From a virus, in the IMG/VR virus record IMGVR_UViG_3300021425_003774, positions 1-54,913 of that record: DNA of 54,913 bases. One strand, 5' to 3'. Numbering within the stretch: position 1 is the stretch's first letter; each line of letters starts with the position of its first letter. The notes beneath the pieces were generated by a model that made no database searches, was not told the origin of the DNA, and was given only the letters and a program-made list of their open reading frames with translations. This document shows positions 9,001 through 49,241 of this stretch, in pieces. Both the position numbers and the translations under genes were made by a program.

Positions 9001-11627
9001 AGGATTACGGATATGGTATTCGTTCAGCAGGTGGTGAAGGAAACCCATACGGTAACGTATCAACATATAACACCGGCCGAAACGGTTGGTCTGGTTATGG
9101 TATTGGTACTCGATGGACTCTGATGTCAACCGAAGGCAACAACTGGGGTATGCATGATAATACTCGTAGTTGGAACTTCTATTACAACGGTTCATATCAT
9201 AGATTCTATTATGGATATGTTTACTCAAGCGAATCATTCCGTGCTCCAATATTCTATGATTTAGATAACACTGGCTATTATGGAAACTTTGCTGGTGATA
9301 CTAACTGGCAAGGTCTAACAGCTCGTGGTCAAGCAATGATTGGCTTGCAGGGTATGACCAGAAGTGGCGCAATAAGTAACTACGGTAGAAGACCTAATAT
9401 AACAGGTGACTCTAACTATTGGACAGGATCCAAAGGTTGGGGTAGAGTTGATATGAACACAGTTGGTAACTGGGGTTCAGGATTCTTCGACTCATGGTCT
9501 AATCCGCCTAATCAACCTTCAGGTACTTCGCACTGGGTAGGTGTACAAGCATACCATTATTCTAACGGTTCAGCAAGATATGGTTGGCAGATGGCAGGTG
9601 GTCCGATTACCAACCTAAGATTCCGTTCTTCTTGGTCTGGTTGGAGAGCCTGGAGAACAATACCTGTTCTCGATGAAAATAGTGGTAACGGTGGTTCAAT
9701 GTATGCCGGCCGTTATTATGATTCTAATAACACCGGATATTATACTGACCCAGCATCTACTTCGGTAATGAACGTTCTTGATATTCGTGGAGAAATTTAC
9801 AACGATGGTTGGTTCCGAAACGATAACGCAGGTCGTGGTTTATATAATAGTTCAACAGGCAGACACTTCTATAGCCCAGGTTCAAGTTATTGGCACTTAG
9901 ATGGCGGTTCAAGTTCTGGTGGTTTAATTATATACGATCGTTATAACGGTTCACAAGGAAGCGGTACAGGTCGTCGTGGTTACCTCTATTACGATAGTTC
10001 AGGTTTCGGTCTGTTAAACAGTTCAGGTGGTTGGGCAGTTCGTATTAACCCAGGAAGTTCTTATACTGAAATTTATAGAAATCTTTATGTTGGAACTGAT
10101 GTAAGAGCACCAATCTATTACGATAGAAATAATACAGGATATTACTTCAACGGTGCTTCTGCTCATAGCACAAGATTTGAAGGTGTAAGTGCTAGAACAA
10201 TGGCTTGGTTAAATCAGCCAGGTCATACAAGAGATAGCGGTGAATATTACAGAGCAAGACCTCGTATAACAGGTAATACTGATTATTGGACTGGTGCGAT
10301 GGGTTGGGGTCGTCAAGATATGACCAACACCGTTGCCGATTGGGGTTCAGGATTTATTGATTCTTGGAGTAATCCACCTAATCAGCCTTCAGGTACATCA
10401 CACTGGGTCGGAGTTCAAGCGTATCACTATTCTAATGGTGGAAGCCGTTATGGTTGGCAAATGGTCGGCGGACCAATTACTAACTTAAGATTCAGAAGTA
10501 CTTGGGGTGGATTCCGTTCTTGGAGAACAATTCCAGTATTAGATGAGAATAGCACGAATGGTGGATCAATGTATGCAGGTCGTTATTACGATTCTAATAG
10601 TACAGGTTATTATACAGATCCAGCATCAACATCAAATATGAACCAAGTACGTGCATACGTATTTGACTTTAATGGTACAGGCGGTAACTCAGGAAGAGCA
10701 ATCGGTTCTTATCCTTATGAGTTATTCCAGGCTTCGGGTGGTTGGAGTTTCCCATATCCTGATTTAAGAATTAACTATCATACAGGTATTTCGTTAGGAG
10801 CAAATCCAAGTTACGAAGGTATGAGGTTCATGAATGATTATAACTCGAATACTGTTAGATTCCAAGTCAACGGTGGTTCAAGTTATACTTACGCAAATAC
10901 TTGGTTACAAGTTGGCGGTGGTGGTGTCGGTATCTATGATGGATATAACGGTGCTCACTTCTTCCCGAATAACCAAACAAGTTACGGCTCATGGGCAATA
11001 TACGGTAACAGAAGTGGATGGTATGGTTTAGCATGGCCACAACCTACTTGGGATCCTCACCTAATGTTCGATGGAAACGGCTCAGGTGGTATCTATCTAC
11101 AAGGTGGCGGTCGTTGGGTATACTATCATAACCGTAGTAATAACTGTACTGGCTTCGCATCATCAAGTACAGTTTCTGGATATCGTGTTAGAATCAACGG
11201 TTCACTGTATTGTAATGGTAACGTTGTTGCTTACTCTGATGCTCGTGATAAAGATAACATTATTACTATTGACGGAGCGTTAGATAAAGTATTACAATTA
11301 CGTGGCGTTTATTACGATAGAAAAACTAGAAAGCATTTAGTTGATGATCGTGATGAAATATATAAAGGACGTCAACTTGGTATGATCGCTCAGGAAGTTA
11401 AAGATATTGTTCCTGAAGTTGTATCTTATGCCGAAGAAATTGACCAATACGGTCTTGATTATCCTAAGATGGTTGGTTTACTTGTTGAAGGTATTAAAGA
11501 TCAAAACGCTATCGTAAAGAGTCAAGAAGAAACAATAAATAATATGCAGAAAGATATTGACATTCTGAAAGAAATGGTATATAATATGCAATCAATAATG
11601 GAGAATAGTAGCAATGGCACTAATTAA
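1..11627 (+). CDS. Giant tail fibre / adhesin with S74 chaperone (5' partial)
   Basis: The reading frame is open from base 3 to the TAA at 11625, so at least 3874 residues are visible and the true start lies left of the window. The N-terminal visible part has phage-fibre motifs such as DADTVDGLEAAQFLRSD (twice). It is followed by a low-complexity stretch of GNITA/DVTAG-type repeats (about 960-1290). About 27 copies follow of a motif like RYYDSNNTGYYTDPASTS, separated by variable beta-rich domains. Two near-duplicate knob-like modules (about 9470-9740 and 10330-10600) share GTSHWVGVQAYHYSNG and WRTIPVLDEN. The C-terminus is a Peptidase_S74 intramolecular chaperone: the YSDARDK motif places the predicted cleavage Ser at codon 11235-11237, releasing about 130 residues that end in a coiled coil. 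The role is host recognition at the tail or baseplate after trimerisation. Family assignment is firm; the exact T4 equivalent (gp34/gp37-like) is uncertain. Confidence 0.9.
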   Translation, partial: QIRNIGTGDYSITNPQQGNSIEFYDGTAGIVIKYAGSNKLAFTSTGTDFTGLATTTIEGNRILTTADEGAGNGLDADTVDGLQASQFLRSDIADTAAGTITFSQDINVDGNAQIDGTLTVDQGALFKALLRTQQNLQVDGNAVIDGDLTVSGNTTYVNTEEILLSDNIITLNANYTGGSPTENGGIEVERGILANAKLVWNEASDYWQLEANSQVIGRIITTADEGSGNGFDADTVDGLEAAQFLRSDADDTATGNITIEGDLTIGDNAGPAQIIFDGNGINRTLYQAAGEIGFLNSSANWAMKSDVDGDLEVERDVEAGRDVIAQDDITATTGNIAATAGNVTAGADVTAQNNITATTGNITASAGNIAATVGDVTAGDDVTAGDSITAQNNITATTGNITATAGSVDAGTSVSAGTTVTAGTDVIGQRFVDADDNSYLVNPAGDSVMNTIDIDDYVRHNGDTNTYIGFSAEDTVVVGASGTNRLTITPSAVTASVDVYGPRFIDTDNNTYLVDPAGTSVINDISLVGEIIHDGDTNTYLNFVAADQFEIVTGGGQRVLVKNTGVDITGDLDVSGNITAVDGTFTGDLSASRFVDSDNTNYFLDPNSDSVLHSIGIDDYIVHNGDSNTYLGFDGNDNIVFHTAGAERFEINATNITGTVDGIFPNLFASRYYDSQNATYYLDPASNSRLNGIGLVGTIFHDGDTDTFIHFDAANSIEFVAGGNQRFLVQGTYALATNQMRSPIYYDSNNTNYYGDFASTSQMAQIDIDSYIRHRGDTNTYLGFDANDSITFVTGGAERVNITDSLSTFYQPVTVQGAVTADRFVDRQNASYYVNPADAGLAATFAGGIRINAISNYTRYDDNSGDGGIALAGPSDITGTSGTTVAISGQYTSGYALMYLNRIDPTANPFNGGNRFIEFRADGATGGSIRGDSSGNIYQILQSGTNWGFWTSGASEALIVDDSGNVMISNSTAPTYTTGDNTPVVGGALTTSKLHIGGSIQLANNDDAIVIGRGTATFLKDEELGFGWGGGWYMLDGTYIRARNNKHIYTTGSYYGNVYYSYQNTAYYADPDGYSQFAGLDVDDYIRHRGDTNTFLRFPSNDFITLGTNNTARLNISNSTVRARNKFEVYGPGIEIQKGSNGGGVGLTVSDQNSGENPGLSGLQQGSILFYHSDGAVTTGSSAAWYFNSSEATTHYVFGTNSGAAGGNLVPIVTNSGSLGNSSYRWGSLYAGTGNFSGDVTGNNAYFYRYYDRNDATYYADPAGTSYQQYMNINVGNENTGGANSSTIGLMMRGNYNSNTWAHKFHKYDHGGGVPIYLSETIGTGAWQAVQRWGSYTGNSFKSQIFGTLKVDTNIHTPILYDSDNSGYYVNPAGSSRMDTITLDGNAVVLREPTGDYGSLAVDGGGRNGYEGFSIGGRSVFMHNNAGRTGIYNDVDNEWFWYADRNSSMRLMFNGGEQARTESGYFLANNQIRSPIFYDSNNTGYYVDPNNTSRFNAVQALRYYFNHATTYYADAASGDYGSMEVGGQKNGWAGYSIAGQWVLMSPGADRVGIYNDTDNEWSQQWYRNSYTLLYFNGIQQAQTANGYFLANNQMRAPIYYDSNNTAYFGHFDDRSRMRTLELGINALTSSGSYALGISHNNRYSIGFRNTNINGNYPWLVHDNFNFNQKGNRDAFIVHFNGLGDRLNLTEDGDLLISGEMAASNYNLSGGNENISLSKLYTRGAADETLFDGTMYFEKRVIQNMQGAEDYTTNVTSEFVKSPDAPGGSSYVLRTSAYRTFYSDYVEVEPGEEVFGEIHARRISGSGGLLYYGIERFDKDKRPIAGNTGTTYFVTGGNNVTSTSWQTFRNHTTIPTSHTPYNGSDGGGVRYVRLRILYNYNSGGALREFTMPILKRVNYHSNIRTDYDIFASRLYSYQNTGFYIDPDNTSIINDLTADQITANIYYDRGNTAYYNDPASNSNTVKQTMQELVVDAGGRNNSNDATAYFSATNNNDWGVIINKNRSAATEYGLDVRMGSSHSYGIRLLAGGTERYRLNNTYMWHRGQSRAPIFYDSDNTAYYTDPASESRINTLRTAGRVVIGGTFQNNPYNSVSSTRLHFGGGNSDANGNYYIGTNLENYNGNYTKLDLRWHTGIRMGAQAVYGGTRIYNNEDLSTLLFSVGRSDTHTRVESGNLYVMNGDARAQIFYDIQDTNWYANPNGTSRFRELDVENNGSQEVFRAYRYGSGPGNYTAARTINQYGNHSWGIVHEFRIGEPGSQSVPGGTDRPSIMFSTGYNSTTWSVGFGYVDNDFRIKQNHGHINQSWGTERFRINTSGEVIIGNNFYGTNAYFNRYYDRNNTGYYADPASTSVFNAMIFNGDVDFNGGANAINITSSDIRSDGNSSWTGNPGAGVLKIQAHSNRWYIVSNGNSNRIVQFRQNGTDRSYIANDGRLHGVGGTGSQDWRAPIFYDNNDTGYYMDPNSTSNSAIRQRGGTLHGPNTTWGQYLYVGGNGHWTGAYASVAATNGNLHLDARAGYSIYLNNYVGGQTYNIGNFYSDRYYDRNNTSYYGDFASTSYMNDVRANIFYERENTAYYFGSSQGDARMRDVRFNQVRVENGATIESVNGAGRIYMGGNFHIDAQNGLDLYLNYYSGRRTRMFYTSNREGARLDTNGIFYAFSQIRTPLIYDYNNTGYYLDMNNNSRFNDLQLRGLYVTTRYHTGSDFTAGTLVQTSIPATATNGASFVLEATGKSYSGDPPFMFTAQGYLYANTIINYSGQHIGKAGFGTMYMFQYNGVLCFWWPRVSYWNSFAVHVRNANGDDRNLVTSITNSGLPGGRTKERQVAMRTTAMYNVNIGTGDMYATRYYDSNNTFYYGDFASTSRINASNNYGYLTFQNYGVGVTGTYTSTRLQQVFAMGSSYRLPADGNSTANMYGIAWSHPNAGSKGGANQLNDHGMLIINNGSFRAAISSRAVFSADIRSPIFYDWNNTGYYVNPAGNSQLSAVYANNWFRAQGGTGLYFQDYGYGIRSAGGEGNPYGNVSTYNTGRNGWSGYGIGTRWTLMSTEGNNWGMHDNTRSWNFYYNGSYHRFYYGYVYSSESFRAPIFYDLDNTGYYGNFAGDTNWQGLTARGQAMIGLQGMTRSGAISNYGRRPNITGDSNYWTGSKGWGRVDMNTVGNWGSGFFDSWSNPPNQPSGTSHWVGVQAYHYSNGSARYGWQMAGGPITNLRFRSSWSGWRAWRTIPVLDENSGNGGSMYAGRYYDSNNTGYYTDPASTSVMNVLDIRGEIYNDGWFRNDNAGRGLYNSSTGRHFYSPGSSYWHLDGGSSSGGLIIYDRYNGSQGSGTGRRGYLYYDSSGFGLLNSSGGWAVRINPGSSYTEIYRNLYVGTDVRAPIYYDRNNTGYYFNGASAHSTRFEGVSARTMAWLNQPGHTRDSGEYYRARPRITGNTDYWTGAMGWGRQDMTNTVADWGSGFIDSWSNPPNQPSGTSHWVGVQAYHYSNGGSRYGWQMVGGPITNLRFRSTWGGFRSWRTIPVLDENSTNGGSMYAGRYYDSNSTGYYTDPASTSNMNQVRAYVFDFNGTGGNSGRAIGSYPYELFQASGGWSFPYPDLRINYHTGISLGANPSYEGMRFMNDYNSNTVRFQVNGGSSYTYANTWLQVGGGGVGIYDGYNGAHFFPNNQTSYGSWAIYGNRSGWYGLAWPQPTWDPHLMFDGNGSGGIYLQGGGRWVYYHNRSNNCTGFASSSTVSGYRVRINGSLYCNGNVVAYSDARDKDNIITIDGALDKVLQLRGVYYDRKTRKHLVDDRDEIYKGRQLGMIAQEVKDIVPEVVSYAEEIDQYGLDYPKMVGLLVEGIKDQNAIVKSQEETINNMQKDIDILKEMVYNMQSIMENSSNGTN
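960..1290 (+). repeat. Tandem GNITA / DVTAG-type peptide repeats inside the fibre gene
   Basis: The fibre frame here encodes repeated short units of the form D-V/I-T-A-x-x-x/G-N-I-T-A (for example ITATTGNIAATAG, ITATTGNITASAG). The same DNA words, such as acagccacaacaggaaacat, recur at about 1070 and 1190. The period is short and the side chains are small or beta-branched, as in a repetitive beta-solenoid or triple beta-spiral shaft. Repeat expansion or contraction by slippage is plausible. Confidence 0.75.
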
Positions 11628-39217: not shown

Positions 39218-39225
39218 TATAAATA
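39218..39225 (+). promoter_or_regulatory. T4-type late promoter TATAAATA of the curli module
   Basis: Exact TATAAATA 37 bases before the first gene of the module (39263). Places the curli genes in the late class with the virion genes. Confidence 0.75.
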
Positions 39226-39262: not shown

Positions 39263-39559
39263 ATGGAAGAAATATTTCAGCTTATATCAGACGTAGGTTT
39301 ACCTATTGCTGGTGCCCTTACGATGGGATTCTTCATATTCATTATTATTAAACAAATCTTTGAAGGAATCATAGACAGCATCGGCACCTTAACAATGTTC
39401 GCAGAAACATTGGAGAATAGAGCAACCACAATGTCAAATGAGATGATCAAGATTGATCTTCTTGTGAGTAGTGCATTAGGATTAAATCCTGACATCGAAA
39501 GAGTAGCCCGAGCAGAAAATTTTATAGAAGATGGCAAAGTAGACGTAAGAAGAGATTAA
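39263..39559 (+). CDS. Small membrane protein (YvrJ/holin-like), first of a pair
   Basis: A 98-residue protein. Residues 11-35 (VGLPIAGALTMGFFIFIIIKQIF) form one membrane helix with the GLPIA/GFPxA start typical of YvrJ-like and some holin-like small proteins. The remainder is an amphipathic helical tail (GTLTMFAETLENRATTMSNEMIKIDLLVSSALG). It is first behind the late promoter. Possible jobs are a holin or an inner-membrane partner for the curli genes; neither is proven. Confidence 0.68.
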   Translation: MEEIFQLISDVGLPIAGALTMGFFIFIIIKQIFEGIIDSIGTLTMFAETLENRATTMSNEMIKIDLLVSSALGLNPDIERVARAENFIEDGKVDVRRD

Positions 39560-39563
39560 TATA

Positions 39564-39833
39564 ATGGATGTAGCGAGTTTAGTCAGTGAGTATGGCTTTC
39601 CTGCCGTTATGGTAGTAGGTCTTGGGTATTTTGTATATTTTGTGTGGAATTTCGTTAACACAAAATTACAGCCTGAGATTGATAAGCAACACATGGCTTT
39701 AATCAAATTGATAGATAGAATGAGAATGTTAGATCAAGACTTAATACGATTACAACAGAAAGTTGATGTTGTACTGAAATATCGAGAAATTGAAGAATTG
39801 AAGAAAAAAGGTGAAAAGACTAATGAAGATTAA
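39564..39833 (+). CDS. Small membrane protein with coiled coil, second of the pair
   Basis: An 89-residue protein. SEYGFPAVMVVGLGYFVYFVWNFV is a membrane helix with the same G-F/L-P-x-x start as the previous gene, so the two are probably distant paralogues. A basic/acidic coiled coil follows (IDKQHMALIKLIDRMRMLDQDLIRLQQKVDVVL), like the hinge region of T4-like or lambda-like accessory proteins. It overlaps csgF. Topology would be N-out/C-in or the reverse; the sequence does not decide. Confidence 0.68.
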   Translation: MDVASLVSEYGFPAVMVVGLGYFVYFVWNFVNTKLQPEIDKQHMALIKLIDRMRMLDQDLIRLQQKVDVVLKYREIEELKKKGEKTNED

Positions 39834-40320
39834 TGGAACACATTTAGGATTGCTTGTAATAAGTTTCTATTTCACTGCGCAAGTCTGTGCAGAACCTATA
39901 GTACACAAATTCAAAAATCCGTCATTTAGCGGAGTAGGTACTGGTGCTCATTATTTAACAATTGAGAATCAGGAACACTCAAGAAAAGAACAAATCAAGG
40001 ATGCTATGGAAGCAGCCGAGAGAGCAGCACAACGAGAATTAGATAACTCGACACTTTCGAAGTTTATAAGAAACCTTGAAAGTAGAATTTATGCTCAGTT
40101 AGCAAAACAGTTAGTGGACAATATGTTCTCTAACGATAATGCAGTAAGGTTTGGATCTTTCGTATTAGAAGGATCTACCGTAACCTATGAAGTAATTACG
40201 AATGCAGATGGTACTGAATTTATTAAGATGACAATTGTTGATGAAAATGGTACTACAACTGTTATTGAGATTCCGATAGGAACAGGAAACTTCGGGGGCG
40301 GTGACCCAGATGGCGGCTAA
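39823..40320 (+). CDS. csgF: CsgF-like curli assembly factor
   Basis: A 165-residue secreted protein. ATG 39823 was chosen over GTG 39811 because AAGGTG stands 8-9 bases upstream and a clean signal peptide results (MKINGTHLGLLVISFYFTAQVCA, cleavage after residue 23). The mature N-terminus FKNPSFSGVG matches the FxNPxFGGN motif with which CsgF plugs and extends the CsgG pore. The C-terminus has TYEVITNADGTEF...TIVDENGTTTVIEIP, like the beta domain of CsgF. It should act at the outer membrane or cell surface with CsgG, encoded next with a short overlap. Confidence 0.88.
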   Translation: MKINGTHLGLLVISFYFTAQVCAEPIVHKFKNPSFSGVGTGAHYLTIENQEHSRKEQIKDAMEAAERAAQRELDNSTLSKFIRNLESRIYAQLAKQLVDNMFSNDNAVRFGSFVLEGSTVTYEVITNADGTEFIKMTIVDENGTTTVIEIPIGTGNFGGGDPDGG

Positions 40321-41257
40321 ATTACTTACAGCAATTATGTCAACTCTTATCTTGGCGAGTTGCGCACAAATGCCGCAATGGTCAGAAGGACCTGCGAATT
40401 GTGAATACGGGCAAGGAAGATACGTTGAAGGATTTAACAAAACTCGAGACGAACATGGAGACGGTTTAGTACTTGACCAAATTAATACAGGCGTTCGTAA
40501 ATATGTTGAGACAAAACAAATTTGTGTTGAACAGCCTCAGGTGGTTAAGTTACCTGCCTATATAGATTTACTTAATCTACCTCCTGCAGAAAATAAGCCT
40601 GTAGTAGCAGTATATGGATTTTTAGATAAGACAGGACAAAGAAAAGATTCTGTCACAGGACAGAGTTTCTCCACTGCGGTAACACAAGGTGGAACAGAAT
40701 TATTAATAGATGCTTTGAAAACAGCAGGTGGTGGAACCTGGTTCAGAGTAGTAGAAAGACAAGGTATTGACGCTCTTGTAAGAGAACGTCAAATCATTCG
40801 TTCAGGTCGTGATGAAGCGGCAAAGAAACTGGGCGAAGAATCTAAGGGTGTTGGCCCACTATTGTTCGCGGGAATGATAATTGAGGGCGGCATCATTGGT
40901 TATGATAGTAATGTAAAAACAGGAGGCCGCGGAGCAAGGACGCTCGGAATTGGCTTTAGTAGACAATATCGTCAGGATGTCGTGACTGTCTCCGTACGTG
41001 CAGTATCCGTTCTTACAGGTGAAATATTATTAAACGTCCAAACGAAGAAATCAATTCTGAGTTACGGCTCAGGAGGAGACGTCTTCCGCTTTATAGAGCA
41101 AGGTACTCAGTTGATTGAATACGAGGACGGAGTTGGTAATAATGAAAGTGTAACATACGCGGTACGAACAGCAATTGAAGCTGCCGTGCTAGAGATGGTG
41201 TATCAGGGTCACGAACGTGGCTTCTGGACAATTAACGATAAAAAAGAGGAAGAATAA
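40310..41257 (+). CDS. csgG: CsgG-like outer-membrane curli secretion pore lipoprotein
   Basis: A 315-residue protein. ATG 40310 follows GGTGA and gives a lipoprotein signal peptide with lipobox LASC (Cys18). Clear CsgG landmarks: VAVYGFLDKTGQRKD, FSTAVTQGGTELLIDALK, WFRVVERQGIDALVRERQIIR, GMIIEGGIIGYDSNVKTGGRGARTLGIG, TGEILLNVQTKKSILSYG, GDVFRFIE and ERGFWTI. In bacteria CsgG forms a ring-shaped beta-barrel that secretes curlin subunits (type VIII secretion). All regions are present, including the two transmembrane hairpin segments. Slightly longer than E. coli CsgG (277), with an extra N-terminal stretch. Overlaps csgF, and its stop overlaps the curlin-like gene (TAATG). Confidence 0.95.
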   Translation: MAAKLLTAIMSTLILASCAQMPQWSEGPANCEYGQGRYVEGFNKTRDEHGDGLVLDQINTGVRKYVETKQICVEQPQVVKLPAYIDLLNLPPAENKPVVAVYGFLDKTGQRKDSVTGQSFSTAVTQGGTELLIDALKTAGGGTWFRVVERQGIDALVRERQIIRSGRDEAAKKLGEESKGVGPLLFAGMIIEGGIIGYDSNVKTGGRGARTLGIGFSRQYRQDVVTVSVRAVSVLTGEILLNVQTKKSILSYGSGGDVFRFIEQGTQLIEYEDGVGNNESVTYAVRTAIEAAVLEMVYQGHERGFWTINDKKEEE

Positions 41258-41988
41258 TGATACGTAAAATATTAGGCCTATCTTTATTATGTGCGTTTTC
41301 TTTCAATGCGCATGCGCAAGCGACTGACGACAATGAAATCAATATCGACCAAACTGGTGATACTTTAACATTGTATGTAGATCAGTATGGATATGGTAAC
41401 AAGATCGGATTGGATAACTTTTCAACCGGATCAAGTGCTATGCCGATAACAGGTTCTTCATTAACATTTAATATTGACCAAATAGGAAATGAAAACTTGT
41501 TCTTTGGTACTTATATCGGTGACAGTACAACTGTTAACGCTTTATTTACTGGAGATTCTAACTCTTGGGATTGGAACGTAGGTTATATTGGTTCATCCGA
41601 TACTTCAACAATTGATGTTGATATTACTGGTGATTCAAATACTATGGACTTTGACCAAGGTTATAACGCAAGTGCAGAAAGATTAGACCTTGACTTAACG
41701 GTTATTGGAGACAGCAATATTTTTGATGTTGACATTGACGTTGACGACGCTGTGTGGAATATGGATATCACAGGCGGAAGCAATAACATCAACACAATGC
41801 AGAAAGACGGAGCAGAGCATGAAATTAACTTGACTCACGTTGGGTCTTCTGCTGATATTGATATTAACCAATTATCTGGAACATGCCCTACAGGCGTAAG
41901 TACTTGTAATGGTATTATCACACTAGATATTGATAGTGAAAATGCTACAATCCAAATTAATCAGAAAGACAGTTCAACAGATTCGTAA
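41257..41988 (+). CDS. Curlin-repeat secreted protein 1 (CsgA/CsgB-like)
   Basis: A 243-residue protein with signal peptide MIRKILGLSLLCAFSFNAHA (cleavage after 20). The mature part has about eight repeats of roughly 22-25 residues centred on G-D/N-x-N (ITGDSNTMDFDQ, VIGDSNIFDVDI, ITGGSNNINTMQ, and IDQTGD / VDQYGYGN / IDQIGNEN with curlin-type Q-x-G). This is the beta-strand/turn/beta-strand pattern of amyloid curlins, but more Asp-rich. Two cysteines occur near the C-terminus. Placed directly after csgG, it is the natural substrate of the phage pore. Which of CsgA or CsgB it corresponds to cannot be told. Confidence 0.8.
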   Translation: MIRKILGLSLLCAFSFNAHAQATDDNEINIDQTGDTLTLYVDQYGYGNKIGLDNFSTGSSAMPITGSSLTFNIDQIGNENLFFGTYIGDSTTVNALFTGDSNSWDWNVGYIGSSDTSTIDVDITGDSNTMDFDQGYNASAERLDLDLTVIGDSNIFDVDIDVDDAVWNMDITGGSNNINTMQKDGAEHEINLTHVGSSADIDINQLSGTCPTGVSTCNGIITLDIDSENATIQINQKDSSTDS

Positions 41989-43120
41989 TTCCAGATTCTT
42001 TGTCCTGTCTTTGTGCATGCTTCTGTCACTAGCGGCAAGTGCAAGTACAGGTGCGGCAGAGAATATTGGTGGAATTGTTGAACAGACTGGTAACGGTAAG
42101 ATTGTCCGGGAAGAAGGCGCTGTACTTGATGCGGCCCTTATCCCGGACATTCAACTTAACGATACCGCAGAAACCTCTCAAGGAAGAATGCTTATTCGAT
42201 TCTTGGATGAAGCAGAGCTTTCTTTAACAGAACACACAAAGGTATACATAGATAAAGTATACTACGACCCAGACCCAAGTAAATCAAAAATGGCAATGCG
42301 TATGGCATTAGGCACAGCTCGGTTTGCGTCTGGTCGTTTAGGAATGGTCAATAAGAATAATATTGATATTCAAACACCCACGGCAACGGTATCAGTTCGT
42401 GGAACAGATTTTACAACAACCATTGACGAGTTAGGTAGATCACTTGTAATACTTCTACCTGACCAATATGGTAATCCTTCAGGCGTTATTGATGTAACAA
42501 ATAACGGTGGTACAATTACTTTAGATGAAGCCTACGCTGCTACAATGGTAAGCAGTTTAGATACGGCGCCAACAAGATCAATCACAATGCAAAACATTAC
42601 TCCAACAATGATTGATAATATGTTTATTGTAAGTCCACCACCTGAAGTAAAGGAAGCATTAGAAGAACAATATGAAGACGAATCAAACCAAGATCAAGGA
42701 TTACTTGATTTTGACTTTTTAGAATTCAATGAATTAGAATATGATGCGTTGGAAGAAGATGCTTTAGAATTTACGGAGCTTGACATTGATTATCTTGATG
42801 TTGATTTTTTAACGGACTTATTGGATGTAGTTGAAGAACTTGTAAAAACAACTGCATCTCTTGATGATAGAGCAATATCAGGAAGTTCATTAGGAGCAGA
42901 ATTAAAGGGAGCAACATTCGGTATGAATACTGACTCTCAATATAACATTTATGAATCAGCAGGAAAAATATTCTTTTATAGAAATGTCAATGGAGTAATA
43001 AATATTGCGTTCGCAGTAGATTCTTCGGTTAGGATTGAAACGAATGTAGATGGTTACGAAGGAATCATAGATCTTAACGGAGGAAATGATTCCATAATCG
43101 TAATTAGACAAGGAGGATAA
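41942..43120 (+). CDS. FecR-domain periplasmic protein with acidic repeat segment
   Basis: About 392 residues from ATG 41942, which overlaps the curlin-like gene by 47 bases (TTG 41930 and GTG 41936 are alternatives). The signal peptide is NSRFFVLSLCMLLSLAASAS-type, with cleavage near residue 39. A FecR domain follows: GGIVEQTGNGKIVREEG, LNDTAETSQGRMLIRFLDEAELSLTEHTKVYID, then ALGTARFASGRLG, IQTPTATVSVRGTDF. Residues about 240-300 form an acidic, hydrophobic-alternating repeat (LEFNELEYDALEEDALEF). In bacteria such FecR-domain proteins often lie next to CHASE2-cyclases, and a CHASE2-cyclase is encoded in this operon. The likely role is an envelope ligand-binding or signalling partner. Confidence 0.82.
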   Translation: MLQSKLIRKTVQQIRNSRFFVLSLCMLLSLAASASTGAAENIGGIVEQTGNGKIVREEGAVLDAALIPDIQLNDTAETSQGRMLIRFLDEAELSLTEHTKVYIDKVYYDPDPSKSKMAMRMALGTARFASGRLGMVNKNNIDIQTPTATVSVRGTDFTTTIDELGRSLVILLPDQYGNPSGVIDVTNNGGTITLDEAYAATMVSSLDTAPTRSITMQNITPTMIDNMFIVSPPPEVKEALEEQYEDESNQDQGLLDFDFLEFNELEYDALEEDALEFTELDIDYLDVDFLTDLLDVVEELVKTTASLDDRAISGSSLGAELKGATFGMNTDSQYNIYESAGKIFFYRNVNGVINIAFAVDSSVRIETNVDGYEGIIDLNGGNDSIIVIRQGG

Positions 43121-43123
43121 ATA
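43116..43123 (+). promoter_or_regulatory. Late-like promoter GATAAATA
   Basis: One mismatch from TATAAATA, spanning the stop codon of the FecR gene and 6 bases before the next ATG. A near-leaderless position makes its use uncertain; AGGAGG of the FecR 3' end may simply be the ribosome site. Confidence 0.3.
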
Positions 43124-43128
43124 ATATT

Positions 43129-43914
43129 ATGAAAACTCGTAGTGAACATGAAGAAAGAGCCTGGGCAAGATTTAGAAAACAAACTCCTTATATATGGACA
43201 ACAAAAGACTTAGCACATGTCTTTGCGTTAGGTCTATTATTTGGTATGTTAATGTTAACCCCTTCCGTACTCGCAGACAATTTAATCACAATTGAACAGA
43301 CAGGTGATAATCTAAATTTAGAGATTCAGCAATACGGTGCTGATAACGAAGTTAAAATGTTAGACCAATATTCGTTCATTAATTCATCGTCATTAGATTT
43401 ATTAATTGTTCAATATAATACTACAGGTAATGATAACACAATAGTATTTGATGAAATCAATGGCACAGGTAATGAATTTAAATTAGGACAAGGTGTTGCT
43501 TTTGATAATACCACACAAGGTTGGAATTATGATGGTTACGAAGGTGGTGGTCATTATATGGAAATAGATTTATACGGTAATGATAACTTTGTTGAATGGC
43601 ATCAAACAAATCAAAGTGGTGCAACTGACGGACATGATTTTAACTTACATGTTGCTGGGTCTGATAATTGGATAGATGGAAGACAACAATCTTCAGGCGC
43701 AAAAGAAGCAAACGTTACAATTTACAATTCAGACAATACTTTAACATTCAGACAAAAAGGCGCCAACGCAAACCATACAGCAAATATTACTTTAGATGGT
43801 ATTTACGGAACGGATGCGCTTATCAGACAAAATAGCACAACCAATCAAACATATAACTTATCAGTAGATTGTTATACAGTTGGTGGTTGTTCAGTAAACG
43901 TGATACAAGAATAA
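43129..43914 (+). CDS. Curlin-repeat secreted protein 2
   Basis: A 261-residue protein with an unusually long N-terminal region (about 28 charged residues) before a hydrophobic segment and signal cleavage site LTPSVLA (about residue 49). The mature part has seven or eight curlin-like repeats: IEQTGDNLNLEIQQYGADN, YNTTGNDNTIVFDE, LYGNDNFVEWHQ, VAGSDNWIDGRQQ, IYNSDNTLTFRQKGAN. A C-terminal pair of cysteines (DCYTVGGC) mirrors that of curlin-like protein 1 (TCPTGVSTC). The two may be a nucleator/major-subunit pair. AGGAGG stands upstream. Confidence 0.8.
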   Translation: MKTRSEHEERAWARFRKQTPYIWTTKDLAHVFALGLLFGMLMLTPSVLADNLITIEQTGDNLNLEIQQYGADNEVKMLDQYSFINSSSLDLLIVQYNTTGNDNTIVFDEINGTGNEFKLGQGVAFDNTTQGWNYDGYEGGGHYMEIDLYGNDNFVEWHQTNQSGATDGHDFNLHVAGSDNWIDGRQQSSGAKEANVTIYNSDNTLTFRQKGANANHTANITLDGIYGTDALIRQNSTTNQTYNLSVDCYTVGGCSVNVIQE

Positions 43915-44225
43915 TGGAATTAGATATTTACGGAAATCCAGTAGGAACATTATATCCGGGTGATGAAGGTTGCCCTCAAGATATGATTTGTTTAACCGAA
44001 GAAGGATTTAACCAAATGCTTGCTGAAGCTGATATGCATTACAATGCGGAAACGTTTCAAGTTGAGCCGATGGGCGACGCAGAAGCTATTATAGATTTTA
44101 CAACAGATTTGCTATTTTTAGATATATGGACAATTTTAAATATGGCAGTTCCTTTAACAATATTCGCAGTGTATGGATTGACTCTATATGCTGGATTCAA
44201 ATGGGTACAAAAACAATTTAATTAA
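43914..44225 (+). CDS. C-terminally anchored small membrane protein, unknown
   Basis: The start is ATG 43914 (TAATG overlap with curlin-like 2); a longer frame from 43869 is inside that gene. The product is 103 residues: MELDIYGNPVGTLYPGDEGCPQDMICLTEEGFNQMLAEADMHYN and so on, then a C-terminal helix ILNMAVPLTIFAVYGLTLYAGFKWV. Two cysteines near residues 19 and 25 could form a disulfide. It probably sits in the inner membrane as a module partner. No family recognised. Confidence 0.7.
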   Translation: MELDIYGNPVGTLYPGDEGCPQDMICLTEEGFNQMLAEADMHYNAETFQVEPMGDAEAIIDFTTDLLFLDIWTILNMAVPLTIFAVYGLTLYAGFKWVQKQFN

Positions 44226-44227
44226 TT

Positions 44228-45175
44228 ATGAAAACATTATTACAAAGAACTATTCAGGATAAAGAAGTCAATTTATATCCTGTTTGGTTAATGAGACAAG
44301 CCGGAAGATATATGCCAGAATATATGGCAATGAAAGAAAAATCAAATGGCTTTTTAGATATGGCTCTTACTCCTTGGAAGGCTGCTGAAATTACAATGCA
44401 ACCTATTAAAGAGTTTGATATGGATTGTGCAATTATATTCTCAGACATACTTATTGTGAATTATGCACTTGGTCAAGAATTAGATTATACGCCTGGTCCT
44501 GTTCTTGGACCATATTCAGAAAATTTTTGGAACACAACTTCAGACGAGTTTTACGAAAAGTGTAAATATGTATATGAAGCAATAAAAATAGTTAGAGAAG
44601 AACTTGACGATAGTAAATCTCTAATTGGTTTTGCTGCAGCACCATATACAATATGCAAGTATATGTGTGATGAAAAAAGATTAGATGTGGTACAAAAATT
44701 AGTACCTTATATTATTGAACATCTTTGCATGCAAATTGAAGCAGGATGTGATACAGTACAAATTTTTGATAGTCATGCTTGTGATATATCAGAAGATGAT
44801 TTTTATGAATATGTCATTGAACCAACAAAGCAAATTGTTGATGTAATAAGAGCACATTATCCTGATGTATGTATCATTGCTTTTCCAAGACTTGTTGGTA
44901 CAAAAATAAACGATTACATAGAACAAGTAAATCCTGATGCAATTAATATCAGTGATGATTTGCCTGTGGACGAAATAAATGCAGAAGTCATTCAAGGTGG
45001 CATTTCAGTTAAAAGATTAATAAAAGGAGAAGACATAACGCCAGTTTTAAATAAGATGAAAGACAGGCCGTATATTGTAAACCTTGCTCATGGAATTCAT
45101 AAGACAACTCCAGTTGAACATGTAAGGCAACTTATAAATACGACAAAGATGTACCGTAAACATTTCGGAGCTTAA
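44228..45175 (+). CDS. hemE: Uroporphyrinogen III decarboxylase
   Basis: A 315-residue enzyme converting uroporphyrinogen III to coproporphyrinogen III in heme synthesis. Motifs: PVWLMRQAGRYMPEY (residues 18-32, with the substrate-binding arginines), FSDILIV with Asp73 (catalytic-type), APYTICKYM, QIFDSHACDIS in place of the usual QxFDSWAG, and NLAHGI-TTP-EHV with the conserved His near the C-terminus. Shorter than the usual 340-360 but all key motifs are present. It starts 3 bases after the small membrane protein and so belongs to the late curli transcript, unlike hemC on the early strand. The heme pathway gene hemD is not in the window. Confidence 0.95.
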   Translation: MKTLLQRTIQDKEVNLYPVWLMRQAGRYMPEYMAMKEKSNGFLDMALTPWKAAEITMQPIKEFDMDCAIIFSDILIVNYALGQELDYTPGPVLGPYSENFWNTTSDEFYEKCKYVYEAIKIVREELDDSKSLIGFAAAPYTICKYMCDEKRLDVVQKLVPYIIEHLCMQIEAGCDTVQIFDSHACDISEDDFYEYVIEPTKQIVDVIRAHYPDVCIIAFPRLVGTKINDYIEQVNPDAINISDDLPVDEINAEVIQGGISVKRLIKGEDITPVLNKMKDRPYIVNLAHGIHKTTPVEHVRQLINTTKMYRKHFGA

Positions 45176-45176
45176 T

Positions 45177-45887
45177 ATGAAAGACGAAGTTACGATAGTT
45201 GTCCCGTGTAAAAACGAACAATTTTATATTCATCATTTGCTTGATGGATTAAAGAAACAAAAAGGTATAGAAGGTATAAGAATTTATATCGCAGATTGTT
45301 CAACCGATGACACAAGAAAGGTCATTGAAGATAATAAAGAAAATTTAGATGTTGTTATTATTGAAGGAGGACCTGTTTCAGTTGCTAAAAATAACGGAGC
45401 AGCTTTAGTAACCACACCGTATATTCTTTTCATAGATTCTGATGTTAGATTTTTTTCAAATACAGTAATCTATGATACTCTAAAACAAATGAAAGAAGAA
45501 GATTTACATTTAATAGGATTAAGTATTAAATGTTATGACAATGATTGGAGAGCAAAGATTGGCTTTTCAATGTTTAATGTAGTAAATAAGATATTGTCAA
45601 GATGGATTCCCTTTGCTGTAGGAGCGTATTGTTTAACTCGTAGAGATAAGTTTTATGAGCACGGTGCGTTTCCTTGTAAGTATCCAACATCAGAAGATTT
45701 TCACTTGTCGAGAAAATATGATCCAAAGAAATTTAAACTTGCCAAACATTACTTTGGACAAGACAGTAGAAGATTCAAGCAGATGGGATATTTTGGTATG
45801 TCCTGGTATTTAATTAAAAATTTCTTATATAGAAATAACCAAAAGCATTGGGATAATATAGATGAAAAAAGATATTGGTCATCGTAG
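45177..45887 (+). CDS. Family 2 glycosyltransferase
   Basis: A 236-residue GT-A fold enzyme: VTIVVPCKNEQFYIHHLLDGL, IYIADCSTDDTRKVI (nucleotide-binding Asp), VAKNNGAALVTTPYILFIDSDVRFF with the DSD (DxD) metal motif, and SEDFHLSR as the acceptor-side ED motif. It transfers a sugar from a nucleotide sugar to a lipid or glycan acceptor; the target is unknown. It has no large membrane domain, but its C-terminal region is basic and aromatic and may touch the membrane. Overlaps the LpxH-like gene by 26 bases, so they are coupled and may act on the same lipid or glycan. Confidence 0.88.
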   Translation: MKDEVTIVVPCKNEQFYIHHLLDGLKKQKGIEGIRIYIADCSTDDTRKVIEDNKENLDVVIIEGGPVSVAKNNGAALVTTPYILFIDSDVRFFSNTVIYDTLKQMKEEDLHLIGLSIKCYDNDWRAKIGFSMFNVVNKILSRWIPFAVGAYCLTRRDKFYEHGAFPCKYPTSEDFHLSRKYDPKKFKLAKHYFGQDSRRFKQMGYFGMSWYLIKNFLYRNNQKHWDNIDEKRYWSS

Positions 45888-46602
45888 TGTATTCATTTCA
45901 GATTTACATTTAGGTAGCAAGCACTGCAGAGACGAAGACTTATTAAAATTTCTCAAAGAAGTTAGAACAGAAAAGCTTTATTTGGTCGGTGATATTATTG
46001 ATGGTTGGAGACTTCAGAAAAAATGGTATTGGCCAAACAATCATAATAGAGTAGTTAAAGAACTTATTCGTATTTCAAAATATACAGATGTTTATTGGAT
46101 AAGCGGTAATCACGATGAGTTCTTAAGAACAATTCCAAATATTAATGTAGGTAATATTGAAACACATAATAGATTAACTCATATTGGAGCTGATGGAAAA
46201 AAATATCTTGTAGTACATGGAGATATGTTTGACTATCTAATGAGAACAAAATTTGGTAAAACAGTAATGCATCTTGGTGACTGGGGTTATGATAGATTAA
46301 TCAACATTAATTATATAGTAAATAAAATAAGAAACTTCTTTGGATATAAACCTTGGTCATTAGCAAAATACCTTAAAAGAAAAGCTAAGTTAGCCTCAAA
46401 CTTTATTGGCGAGTTTGAAACAGAAATGGTTAAGTACGCAAGAAAGAAAAATTATGATGGAATTATATGTGGTCATATTCATCATGCAGAAATAAAACAA
46501 CACGACGAAATCACATATATGAATGATGGTGATTGGTGTGAAAGCTGTTCAGCATTAATTGAAGATCACGAAGGTAATTGGAAAATAAATTATTATGCTT
46601 AA
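45862..46602 (+). CDS. Metallophosphoesterase, LpxH/UDP-diacylglucosamine-hydrolase-like
   Basis: A 246-residue calcineurin-type phosphoesterase with all metal motifs: ISDLHLGS (residues 12-19), VGDIIDGW (42-49), SGNHDEF (78-84), VHGDMFD and GHIHHAE near the C-terminus. The DGWRLQKKWYWP segment and overall size are those of the LpxH-related family that removes UMP from UDP-2,3-diacylglucosamine in lipid A synthesis, or related membrane phosphatases. Coupled to the glycosyltransferase upstream and overlapping the cyclase gene downstream. A role in lipid or LPS remodelling is likely but the substrate is inference. Confidence 0.85.
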   Translation: MKKDIGHRSVFISDLHLGSKHCRDEDLLKFLKEVRTEKLYLVGDIIDGWRLQKKWYWPNNHNRVVKELIRISKYTDVYWISGNHDEFLRTIPNINVGNIETHNRLTHIGADGKKYLVVHGDMFDYLMRTKFGKTVMHLGDWGYDRLININYIVNKIRNFFGYKPWSLAKYLKRKAKLASNFIGEFETEMVKYARKKNYDGIICGHIHHAEIKQHDEITYMNDGDWCESCSALIEDHEGNWKINYYA

Positions 46603-48640
46603 ACAATTAACCAAGTGGTGGACAGTCTTATTTACAATCGCAGGATTTGCTTCTTTAAGTATTATTAACCCAAATATAATTCAAAGTATAGAATACGCTT
46701 ATTATGATACCTTACAGCAAAATAAAGAAAAAGAAATTATTGAAGACATTGTACTCGTCAACATCGACGAAAAAGCAATCGCTGCCAAAGGTCAGTACCC
46801 TTGGCCTCGTGGTTCAATTGCTGATTATTTACGCGACGGTCCTGACGATAGCCTTTATGTTCTTAACGTAATATATTCTGAAGAAGATAGATTTGGGGAA
46901 GACAACTTACTTGCATTTGAAATGCAACAAAAGGCGGTGGTGTTGGCATCAGCACCATCACAACAAATAACCGGAGGAGTAGGCAACTTTGTTGGAGTTG
47001 CTACGTTTGGAGAACAAAATGAAAATTGGCTTTACTCGTTCCCAGGTTTATTATATCCTGTGGATCAAATTAGTAGTTGGGCTTTTGGTGTTGGGGCCAC
47101 TGTTAGCATACCTGACCAACCCACAGGAGTCGTGCGAAGGTCGCCGCTCGTTATACAAGCAGCCGGGAATTCCTACCCATCTCTCGCCCTCGATACCTTA
47201 CGTGTGTACACAGGAGAACCAAGCTACCAAATGAAGGTAGGCACCAATGGTGTTGAATGGGTAAGAATAGGAAAGCAAGATCCTATTACAACAAATAGCT
47301 TTTCTGAATTACCAATTGCGTTTTGGAATCAATTTGAACAAATAAGTATCACCGATCCTTTACCTAGTGGAAAGGTTCTTATCTTCGGAGTAACAGCCGA
47401 AGGTGTCTCTAATCCAGTTTCAACCCCAACGGGTGCAATGTATCCCCACGAAGTTCAAGCACATCTGATTCAGACCGTTCTTTCAGGAGTTGAAATAAAA
47501 ATTCCCGACTGGTCTGCAATATTTGAGCTTTTCTTTTTGGTGGTTGTATGTCTAGGAATCCTTGGAGCGGTCTATGGATTGCCCATAATTCCTGGGGTGA
47601 TAACATCTCTTCTTCTTGTCGGGTCCGGATACGGAGTAAGCTGGTGGCTTTGGAGCGACTCACTAACATTTGTTGACGCATCTTTGATTTCATTAGGTTC
47701 CTTAGTGGTGTTTGCACAATCATCGTTCAACAATTACTATTTAACATTTTTAGAAAAGCGGGCAATCATGAAACAGTTTGCCGGTTATTGCTCTCCAGAA
47801 GTTGTTACTATTTTACAACAAAATCCTTCTCTTGTCAAGGATGGAATGAAGAAAGATGTAAGTATTGTATTTAGTGATCTTCGAGGATTTACTCCATTAG
47901 GCGAAAGCTTCGGCGATGATGTTAGAGGGCTGACTACTTTGATGAATGGTTATATGGATGCTATTACACAACCTGTTCTAGATGCAAATGGAATGATCAT
48001 AAAGTATATTGGAGACGCAAGTATGCATATACATAATGCTCCAATGGAAGATAACGATCATGCAAAGACTGCAGTCCAAACTGGTATTAATATGTTAAGA
48101 GCGGTGGAAAAATTTAATGATAAGATTACAAAAGAAGGAAGGCCTCCAATTGGTATGGGGGCTGGGATTAACAGTGGCTTGGGTTATGTTGGTGAGATGG
48201 GTTCTACAAGTCGACATAGTTATGACATCCTTGGAGATTCTGTTTCAACAGCTGCACGAATTGAGTCTAAATGTAAAGAATATGGTTGCTTATTATTAGT
48301 TGGAGAAGAAACGGTTAGTAGATGTAATCCTGAAGAGTTTCTTTTCTTAAAGGTAGATGATCTTGCTGTGAAAGGAAAATCAGTAGGAGTTGGAATATAC
48401 ACAGTGTTGGACTTGGTAAAAGATAAATACAATAAACCAGCAGAAATGCATGAAGCGATGCATTCAAATTATCAAAAGCAAAACTTTGATAAGGCGATCA
48501 AAATATGTAATGACCTTATGGATTGCTTCGAAGGACAAATGCAAGGTTATTATAAAATGTGGATTGAGCGTTGTGAATATATGAAAACGCAAGATTTGCC
48601 AAAGGATTGGAATGGAGTTTTTATCGCGACCACTAAGTAG
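46595..48640 (+). CDS. CHASE2-domain class III adenylate cyclase
   Basis: A 681-residue protein. An N-terminal membrane helix (LFTIAGFASLSIINP) is followed by a periplasmic CHASE2 sensor (about 30-300: IVLVNIDEKAIAAKGQYPWPR, GAMYPHEVQAHLIQTVLSG), then about three membrane helices (310-400), then the cyclase domain (about 420-600). Active-site residues by spacing against mycobacterial Rv1625c: metal Asp428 (FSDLRGFT) and Asp474 (KYIGDAS), adenine-specifying Lys470 and Asp544, transition-state Arg555. The transition-state Asn is replaced by Ser551. The Lys/Asp pair points to ATP, so cAMP is the expected product if active. A helical C-terminal tail follows. Very unusual in a phage. Overlaps both neighbours. 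Confidence 0.9.
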   Translation: MLKQLTKWWTVLFTIAGFASLSIINPNIIQSIEYAYYDTLQQNKEKEIIEDIVLVNIDEKAIAAKGQYPWPRGSIADYLRDGPDDSLYVLNVIYSEEDRFGEDNLLAFEMQQKAVVLASAPSQQITGGVGNFVGVATFGEQNENWLYSFPGLLYPVDQISSWAFGVGATVSIPDQPTGVVRRSPLVIQAAGNSYPSLALDTLRVYTGEPSYQMKVGTNGVEWVRIGKQDPITTNSFSELPIAFWNQFEQISITDPLPSGKVLIFGVTAEGVSNPVSTPTGAMYPHEVQAHLIQTVLSGVEIKIPDWSAIFELFFLVVVCLGILGAVYGLPIIPGVITSLLLVGSGYGVSWWLWSDSLTFVDASLISLGSLVVFAQSSFNNYYLTFLEKRAIMKQFAGYCSPEVVTILQQNPSLVKDGMKKDVSIVFSDLRGFTPLGESFGDDVRGLTTLMNGYMDAITQPVLDANGMIIKYIGDASMHIHNAPMEDNDHAKTAVQTGINMLRAVEKFNDKITKEGRPPIGMGAGINSGLGYVGEMGSTSRHSYDILGDSVSTAARIESKCKEYGCLLLVGEETVSRCNPEEFLFLKVDDLAVKGKSVGVGIYTVLDLVKDKYNKPAEMHEAMHSNYQKQNFDKAIKICNDLMDCFEGQMQGYYKMWIERCEYMKTQDLPKDWNGVFIATTK

Positions 48641-49241
48641 TTTATTACTAGGATTGTTTTTATTAGCAGTTCCAGTAGAAGCATATGTTCCAAAAGACCC
48701 ATTTATTTCTGAACTCTCAGAAGCACGAAAAGAACTTATCAGAATGGGGCATACAGCTCCTTACAATGAATTAACAGTACGAAGAGTCGTTGTTGGTAAG
48801 GCAAGAATAATGCCGAATGGTGCAATCATTACATTACCTCATGGTCCTGATATGGTTCCCTCTTTTTACGCCTTACAATACGATCCAAAATGGCAAGTAA
48901 AAAAAGAACCTGATTATACAATATCTTATTGGTCCGACAGAGAAAAACGAATGATAGATATTTTATTTTTCTCTGCTCAAATACTTGATGTTTATTCAAC
49001 TTATCGTGGATTAAAATACGAATGTATCACTGAAGCAAATCCTTTATTACCTCAAGTACCTGACCTAACAGAATTAATAGGATTAAAACTTGTTGTCATT
49101 GGTGGATTTAAAAATTGGATTGAAGCCGATGAAAATTTTTGGTATGGGTGGAAGCTCGGAGCAGGAATGACAACAGGTATGGTTACAGTAAATAACTTTA
49201 GGCTTTTGAAAAAAGCACAAAAGCAATGTAGAAGAAGATAA
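48612..49241 (+). CDS. Secreted/membrane protein with DUF5658-like segment
   Basis: A 209-residue protein whose ATG overlaps the cyclase gene by 29 bases. The signal peptide is SLLLGLFLLAVPVEA (cleavage near residue 24). The C-terminal half has AQILDVYSTYRGLKYECITEANPLL, the D-x-x-ST/TT-x-x-GL-x-x-x-x-EANPLL pattern of DUF5658-type membrane proteins, and a second hydrophobic stretch (LIGLKLVVIGGF). It is probably anchored in the envelope. It is the last gene of the module; no plus-strand terminator with a T-run is visible behind it. Confidence 0.75.
   Translation: MEFLSRPLSSLLLGLFLLAVPVEAYVPKDPFISELSEARKELIRMGHTAPYNELTVRRVVVGKARIMPNGAIITLPHGPDMVPSFYALQYDPKWQVKKEPDYTISYWSDREKRMIDILFFSAQILDVYSTYRGLKYECITEANPLLPQVPDLTELIGLKLVVIGGFKNWIEADENFWYGWKLGAGMTTGMVTVNNFRLLKKAQKQCRRR

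Follow-up and report, generated by a model that had tools for sequence, protein, structure and literature searches.

Adenylate cyclases encoded within the curli (T8SS) module of pelagiphages were published in 2022, where they accompany a FecR gene and were assigned an alphaproteobacterial ancestry; the same work notes that known Pelagibacter are without T8SS genes, and the active site and catalytic residues of the cyclase are not discussed in its text (PMC9599517). The Methylophilales phage Melnitz and its curli pore have also been described, with the cyclase unmentioned (PMC9004378). With regard to catalysis, the closest described enzymes are two mycobacterial class III cyclases that dispense with the near-universal transition-state Asn. 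Ma1120 has Ala at this position and is active, and putting Asn in drastically lowered its activity, with most or all of it lost (PMC4215837), while Rv1900c has His at the same position and is an active cyclase (PMC4886424). As both enzymes are active, the Asn is evidently dispensable, and the Asn-Arg pair is not strictly defining for the class.

The locus described here lies in a stretch of DNA of 54,913 nt from a marine bacteriophage (IMG/VR virus record IMGVR_UViG_3300021425_003774), which we refer to in its entirety as the window. Its cyclase gene belongs to a series of genes on one strand, tightly spaced or overlapping, that extends from 39263 to 49241 and in which two phrog_18771 paralogues are followed by CsgF, CsgG, a curlin, FecR, a second curlin, variable cargo, the cyclase and a 209-aa protein. 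Between 39811 and 48640 this reproduces the published phage module order of CsgF, CsgG, curlin, FecR, (second curlin) and cyclase (PMC9599517). The features are:

39218..39225, + strand: T4-type late promoter motif TATAAATA, 37 nt upstream of the first module gene
39263..39833, + strand: two paralogous small genes, phrog_18771, opening the module
39811..40320, + strand: CsgF (PF10614, 5e-16)
40301..41257, + strand: CsgG outer-membrane curli pore (PF03783, 3e-54)
41257..41988, + strand: curlin-repeat protein 1
41930..43120, + strand: FecR-domain periplasmic protein with a loosely curlin-like C-terminal end; proposed CHASE2 partner
43129..43914, + strand: curlin-repeat protein 2
43869..46602, + strand: variable cargo (118-aa ORF, URO-D/HemE-like, GT2, LpxH-like metallophosphatase)
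45133..45140, + strand: further copy of the late promoter motif, 36 nt upstream of the GT2 gene and 1.45 kb upstream of the cyclase
46595..48640, + strand: CHASE2-class III adenylyl cyclase, type A, 681 aa (ORF call, Pfam, AlphaFold, Foldseek)
48224..48226, + strand: codon of Asp544 (adenine recognition; relatives have Ser/Thr)
48245..48247, + strand: codon of Ser551 (transition-state Asn position; profile alignment, relatives)
48612..49241, + strand: 209-aa DUF5658-like gene that closes the run and overlaps the cyclase end

Genes preceding CsgF in the published phages are called histidine kinases (PMC9599517); Pfam found no domain in the two phrog_18771 genes of the window, and their PHROG is one of unknown function. 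The cargo is absent or different in relatives, and the interval from curlin 2 to the cyclase behaves as a hot spot, with only URO-D (and the 118-aa ORF) in three relatives (L009, L010, L014) and nothing in another (L006). The phosphatase at 45862-46602 was considered as a cAMP phosphodiesterase and rejected, its best matches being LpxH-like and far below curated cut-offs; given these weak matches, and its absence beside the cyclase in most relatives, we treat it as cargo. The order of the module is not fixed in all phages, since in L063 and L085 the curli block stands inverted with respect to the cyclase gene. Elsewhere in the window, a single ORF of 3572 aa (909-11627) gave no NCBIfam match.

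A first-pass annotation, made from the sequence without database searches, had named the product of 46595-48640 a phage-encoded CHASE2-adenylate cyclase, and the domain matches bear this out, with CHASE2 (PF05226) spanning residues 21-319 (E 1e-29) and Guanylate_cyc (PF00211) residues 419-596 (E 6e-18). The AlphaFold model (pLDDT 84) proceeds from an N-terminal TM helix (9-24) through CHASE2 to three further TM helices (307-328, 331-356 and 363-395), the cyclase and a helical tail, which gives a predicted layout of TM1 at ~9-24, periplasmic CHASE2 at 47-297, TM2-4 at 307-395, the catalytic domain at 418-605 and the tail at 613-665. PF05226 is accordingly placed between one N-terminal and three C-terminal TM helices, as in CHASE2 sensors, and the catalytic domain combines the class III nucleotidyl cyclase fold with both metal aspartates. 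Foldseek matched the model to CyaB (3r5g), CyaC (1wc0) and Cya2 (2w01), with a TM-score on the target of 0.81-0.88.

The active site, however, departs from the canonical form. D428, K470, D474, D544, S551 and R555 were all confirmed in the window protein, and the annotation was correct in counting the metal aspartates, Lys470, Asp544 and Arg555 as present. Its central claim, that the transition-state Asn has become Ser551, is upheld by a profile of nine relatives against solved cyclases, in which S551 aligns, with no gaps nearby, under the Asn of Cya2, CyaB and CyaC; neither an Asn elsewhere nor the loss of a metal Asp was seen. The survey of related phages that it had proposed was carried out as a comparison of 222 aligned catalytic domains at six residues (metal Asp, Lys, metal Asp, 544, 551 and Arg), and separates two phage types. 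Type A, to which the window belongs, has the signature D-K-D-D-S-R in 94/94 sequences, plus 5 records of phage contigs inside MAGs, whereas type B has D-K-D-S-N-R in 82/82 complete sequences, and all 39 sampled bacterial relatives likewise carry Asn (D-K-D-S-N-R in 33, D-K-D-T-N-R in 6). Some of the loci overlap on the same contig, such that non-redundant counts are lower, and the split is identical in the non-redundant full-length phage set of 57 type A and 72 type B sequences. An alignment slip as the source of Ser551 is ruled out by the gap-free profile alignment together with the relatives, as is a sequencing error by the consistency of Ser in type A and of Asn in type B and the bacterial enzymes.

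One feature absent from the first-pass annotation is that D544 is itself derived in type A, the relatives having Ser or Thr there. The change of Asn551 to Ser is coupled with that of Ser/Thr544 to Asp, and Asp469, immediately before the Lys, has also become Ile, so that the base-recognition pair reads I-K...D in type A versus D-K...S/T in type B and all 39 bacterial relatives. In total, 21 diagnostic columns set type A apart from all relatives, many of them around the pocket, including Ser476, His478 and His480 adjoining metal Asp474. K470, D428 and D474 are invariant across the catalytic domains, and Arg555 is invariant in the 94 type A sequences. Type A thus displays the Lys and Asp/Thr/Ser combination by which class III adenylyl cyclases specify adenine (K470, D544), and retains only the Arg of their Asn-Arg pair. 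The I-K...D arrangement resembles that of class IIIa, and kinship of type A with a class IIIa enzyme is compatible with the data (AU p=0.23), but the reading of type A as true class IIIa is less favoured, as both the tree and a common C-terminal tail put it with the CHASE2 cyclases of Alphaproteobacteria.

Contrary to the initial remark that such cyclases are very rare in phages, scans of IMG/VR returned at least 405 stretches with type A and at least 585 with type B (the HTVC008M type), and the named relatives comprise four Melnitz isolates and HTVC008M, in keeping with the 2022 report (PMC9599517). Among 597 sampled bacterial genomes, the Ser motif YD..GD.V[S/T/C] occurs in two, in each case on contigs with the phage curli module, and it is because of this module that they are judged to be phage. 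One of the contigs in the Rhodobacteraceae bin also holds T4-type gp32 and gp59 homologues, and that of the planctomycete bin was so judged from the curli module and one T4-like gene; a bacterial origin of the Ser form was rejected on these grounds. Phage contigs with curli and cyclase genes (L100, L101, L230-L232) are binned in bacterial MAGs that serve as species representatives, namely Rhodobacteraceae Water_Bin34 and Pirellulales BS30m-G48. As to whether the phages acquired types A and B once or twice, the data are compatible with a single phage clade (AU p=0.53).

The Ser itself is maintained by selection. No single synonymous step connects the AGY and TCN codon sets for Ser, and both are in use at position 551 (AGY 33, TCN 24 in non-redundant type A); a residue that is fixed in 94/94 and coded in both ways is best explained by selection. 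Among 13 close relatives, purifying selection is stronger on the catalytic domain and tail (omega 0.066 and 0.061) than on the CHASE2 sensor (0.185). Furthermore, types A and B have been exchanged behind the same CHASE2 sensors. The CHASE2 tree conflicts with the catalytic tree, and type B as one clade on the former is rejected (AU p=1.7e-150). The pairs that share a CHASE2 lineage and differ in catalytic type are L024 and the window (L024 joins a window-like CHASE2, 65%, to a type B catalytic domain), L064 and L146, and Melnitz and HTVC008M (CHASE2 59% identical), with the breakpoint of the swap in the last TM helices and linker, at approximately residues 300-385. Since the two types are repeatedly exchanged behind the same sensor in the same operon, the job of type A is probably the same as that of type B, and the exchange and the stronger catalytic constraint argue together against a dead decoy. 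A change of function would likewise be consistent with the long branch that leads to type A.

With regard to the signal input, a FecR gene lies within 6 kb upstream of the cyclase in 75 of the 80 phage loci with enough sequence. The window FecR scores 34 bits against PF04773 (cut-off 24), its model matches the PupR signalling domain (6ovk), and it consists of an N-terminal hydrophobic helix (2-38) and a periplasmic domain with no cytoplasmic part. It thus differs from FecR anti-sigma systems, in which the protein has an anti-sigma domain in the cytoplasm and a FecI-type sigma factor is encoded next to it; no sigma factor occurs among the identified module genes of the window. Phage FecR proteins often end in one or two curlin-type strands, the strict motif being found in 53 of 90 tails versus 0.7% of shuffled tails; the window FecR tail passes only the loose form, and the curlin-like character of this end is a matter of motif counts, as Pfam Curlin_rpt gave no match on FecR tails. 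In bacteria, a FecR gene lies directly upstream of a related CHASE2 cyclase on two plasmids (Shinella, and Paracoccus pAMI5) and by coordinates precedes it in three of ~23 genomes, and approximately 20 of the 23 have no detectable FecR gene beside the cyclase, from which the pairing outside phages is evidently optional. A tblastn search with the window FecR against the plasmids gave no match. The Shinella pair stands directly before an NHLP bacteriocin export system (L184, 7148-10876), a neighbourhood that points to FecR-CHASE2 pairs as companions of various secretion systems. We would put direct contact between FecR and CHASE2 at an even chance, and we infer that FecR may couple curli export or assembly to the sensor.

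In an earlier study, the search for late promoters in pelagimyophages was reported as unsuccessful (PMC7029224). In the window, the octamer TATAAATA occurs in nine copies (12050-45140), all on the + strand and each 10-63 nt from the start of a downstream gene, in most cases a structural one. As this total is at chance level (8.1 expected on both strands), the evidence for a late promoter is one of placement, and the motif is found within 120 nt upstream of the same first gene in 26 of 56 relatives, versus 0.95% of random stretches. A sigma-70 promoter scan was not above chance. The late expression that the first-pass annotation had supposed is supported by the copy that lies 37 nt ahead of the gene opening the module, which suggests that module and cyclase alike would be expressed late in infection.

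Taken together, it is reasonable to postulate an inner-membrane adenylyl cyclase, made late and encoded by the final core gene of a phage curli module, whose periplasmic CHASE2 domain would read an envelope signal, most likely through the FecR of the same operon, with the curlin-like end of FecR potentially reporting curli export or assembly. The catalytic domain would act as a homodimer to form cAMP; its pocket may have been rebuilt as a unit, with I469-K470...D544 for base recognition and Ser551 for Asn, and would remain catalytically competent, with Arg555 carrying most of the transition-state work. That type A is catalytically active we consider likely, the metal aspartates, Lys, Arg and fold all being intact, and that its product is cAMP is, to judge from the predicted pocket, fairly likely as well, since Lys470 and Asp544 predict ATP as the substrate. 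The joint reading, that of an active, late-expressed, FecR-coupled adenylyl cyclase with a rebuilt pocket, we favour at somewhat better than even chances. A search of six phage records (the window, three relatives from IMG/VR, and Melnitz and HTVC008M, both complete) revealed no cNMP-binding domain (PF00027), and as such the cAMP receptor would be a host protein.

The suggestion in the first-pass annotation that the enzyme might be slow or a decoy is without positive support, as the Ser is selected, type A and the canonical type can stand in for each other, and cyclases lacking the Asn are active (PMC4215837, PMC4886424), the two cited here having Ala and His in its place. That the Ser-type enzyme is active but slow, loss of the Asn lowering kcat in a phage that wants a weak, strongly gated cyclase, is in our estimation unlikely. 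Ser is indeed without the amide of Asn, and Asn and Arg were reported as essential in a mammalian cyclase (Yan 1997, as cited in PMC4215837), but the non-Asn residue performs better in Ma1120 (PMC4215837), and the combination of D469I, S476/H478/H480, S544D and N551S looks like re-tuning as opposed to simple damage. A pocket remodelled to take a different nucleotide or to yield a different cyclic product, such as cGMP or a mixture, would account for the long branch and for the clustering of many of the 21 diagnostic columns near the pocket, and Rv1900c, itself Asn-less, is purported to form both cAMP and cGMP (PMC4886424). We nevertheless hold it to be improbable, as Lys470 and Asp544 are the usual adenine pair and guanylyl cyclases have Glu at the Lys position (PMC4215837).

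Comparably improbable is a catalytically dead protein, whether as a cAMP/ATP-binding decoy or as a structural membrane partner of FecR and CsgG. One catalytic residue is lost and no phage cAMP receptor was found in the six records, as such a protein would have it, but all 94 sequences keep the metal aspartates, Lys and Arg unchanged, the catalytic domain and tail are the most constrained parts with the Ser itself selected, and type A replaces an intact enzyme behind the same sensor. We give very little credence to a role in counter-defence, in which the cyclase would compete for or dilute the cyclic nucleotide signal of a Pycsar-type host defence. Partial PycC profile matches (best 2e-16) are to be expected of any class III cyclase, the K-D pair, which is intact, is that typical of adenylyl cyclases, and the neighbours are curli genes and FecR, without defence or counter-defence genes; PycC, in contrast, is class III-like and is encoded in a defence operon together with an effector.

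To judge by the literature searched, four points are new, namely an active-site change that is coupled and fixed, two catalytic types that can be exchanged, a late promoter for the module, and a FecR end of curlin-like character. A more ambitious synthesis, in which a phage-only cyclase branch re-invented its active site and trades this cassette with the canonical domain behind CHASE2 while FecR reports curli export, giving a virus-owned envelope-to-cAMP circuit with a possibly altered product, is tentative, and we would put it well short of even odds. In any case, nature provides here, in replicate, a test of the extent to which the class III transition-state Asn can be replaced, with matched phages that have the same sensor lineage and either an Asn- or a Ser-type enzyme. 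It also leads to a concrete prediction about the curli module, as yet unexplained, of these widespread marine phages, namely a membrane signalling output from FecR through CHASE2 to cAMP that would be switched on late; were the host without a cAMP receptor, the purpose of the messenger would become a sharp question.

Among known systems, the Melnitz cyclase (QZI94833.1) resembles that of the window in being type A with Ser and in the same curli-FecR module (48.5% identity at full length), but its CHASE2 domain is only ~33% identical and no URO-D/GT2/phosphatase cargo precedes it. The cyclase of Pelagibacter phage HTVC008M (AGE60353.1) and the pelagiphage T8SS cyclases (PMC9599517) share the domain order and the module (CsgF, CsgG, curlin, FecR, curlin, cyclase); that of HTVC008M differs in being type B, with D-K...S and Asn, and in having no C-terminal tail. 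The alphaproteobacterial cyclases of Shinella sp. H4-D48 plasmid p1 and Paracoccus aminophilus pAMI5 have FecR directly upstream, CHASE2, a class III domain and the same tail as the window protein, ending WDGVxxxxxK; unlike it, they are canonical (D-K...S and Asn), with catalytic domains ~37-41% identical, and the stretches seen contain no curli operon. Ma1120 (Mycobacterium avium) and Rv1900c (M. tuberculosis) resemble type A as active class III enzymes without the transition-state Asn, but they carry Ala and His in place of Ser, have another architecture and are not fixed in a phage lineage. Last, the BiofilmReg system of Burkholderia (PMC5192318), with FecR/LysM and a CHASE2 histidine kinase, likewise couples a FecR-domain protein by gene order to a CHASE2 sensor and is tied to biofilm formation, although its output is a histidine kinase and response regulator with no cyclase.
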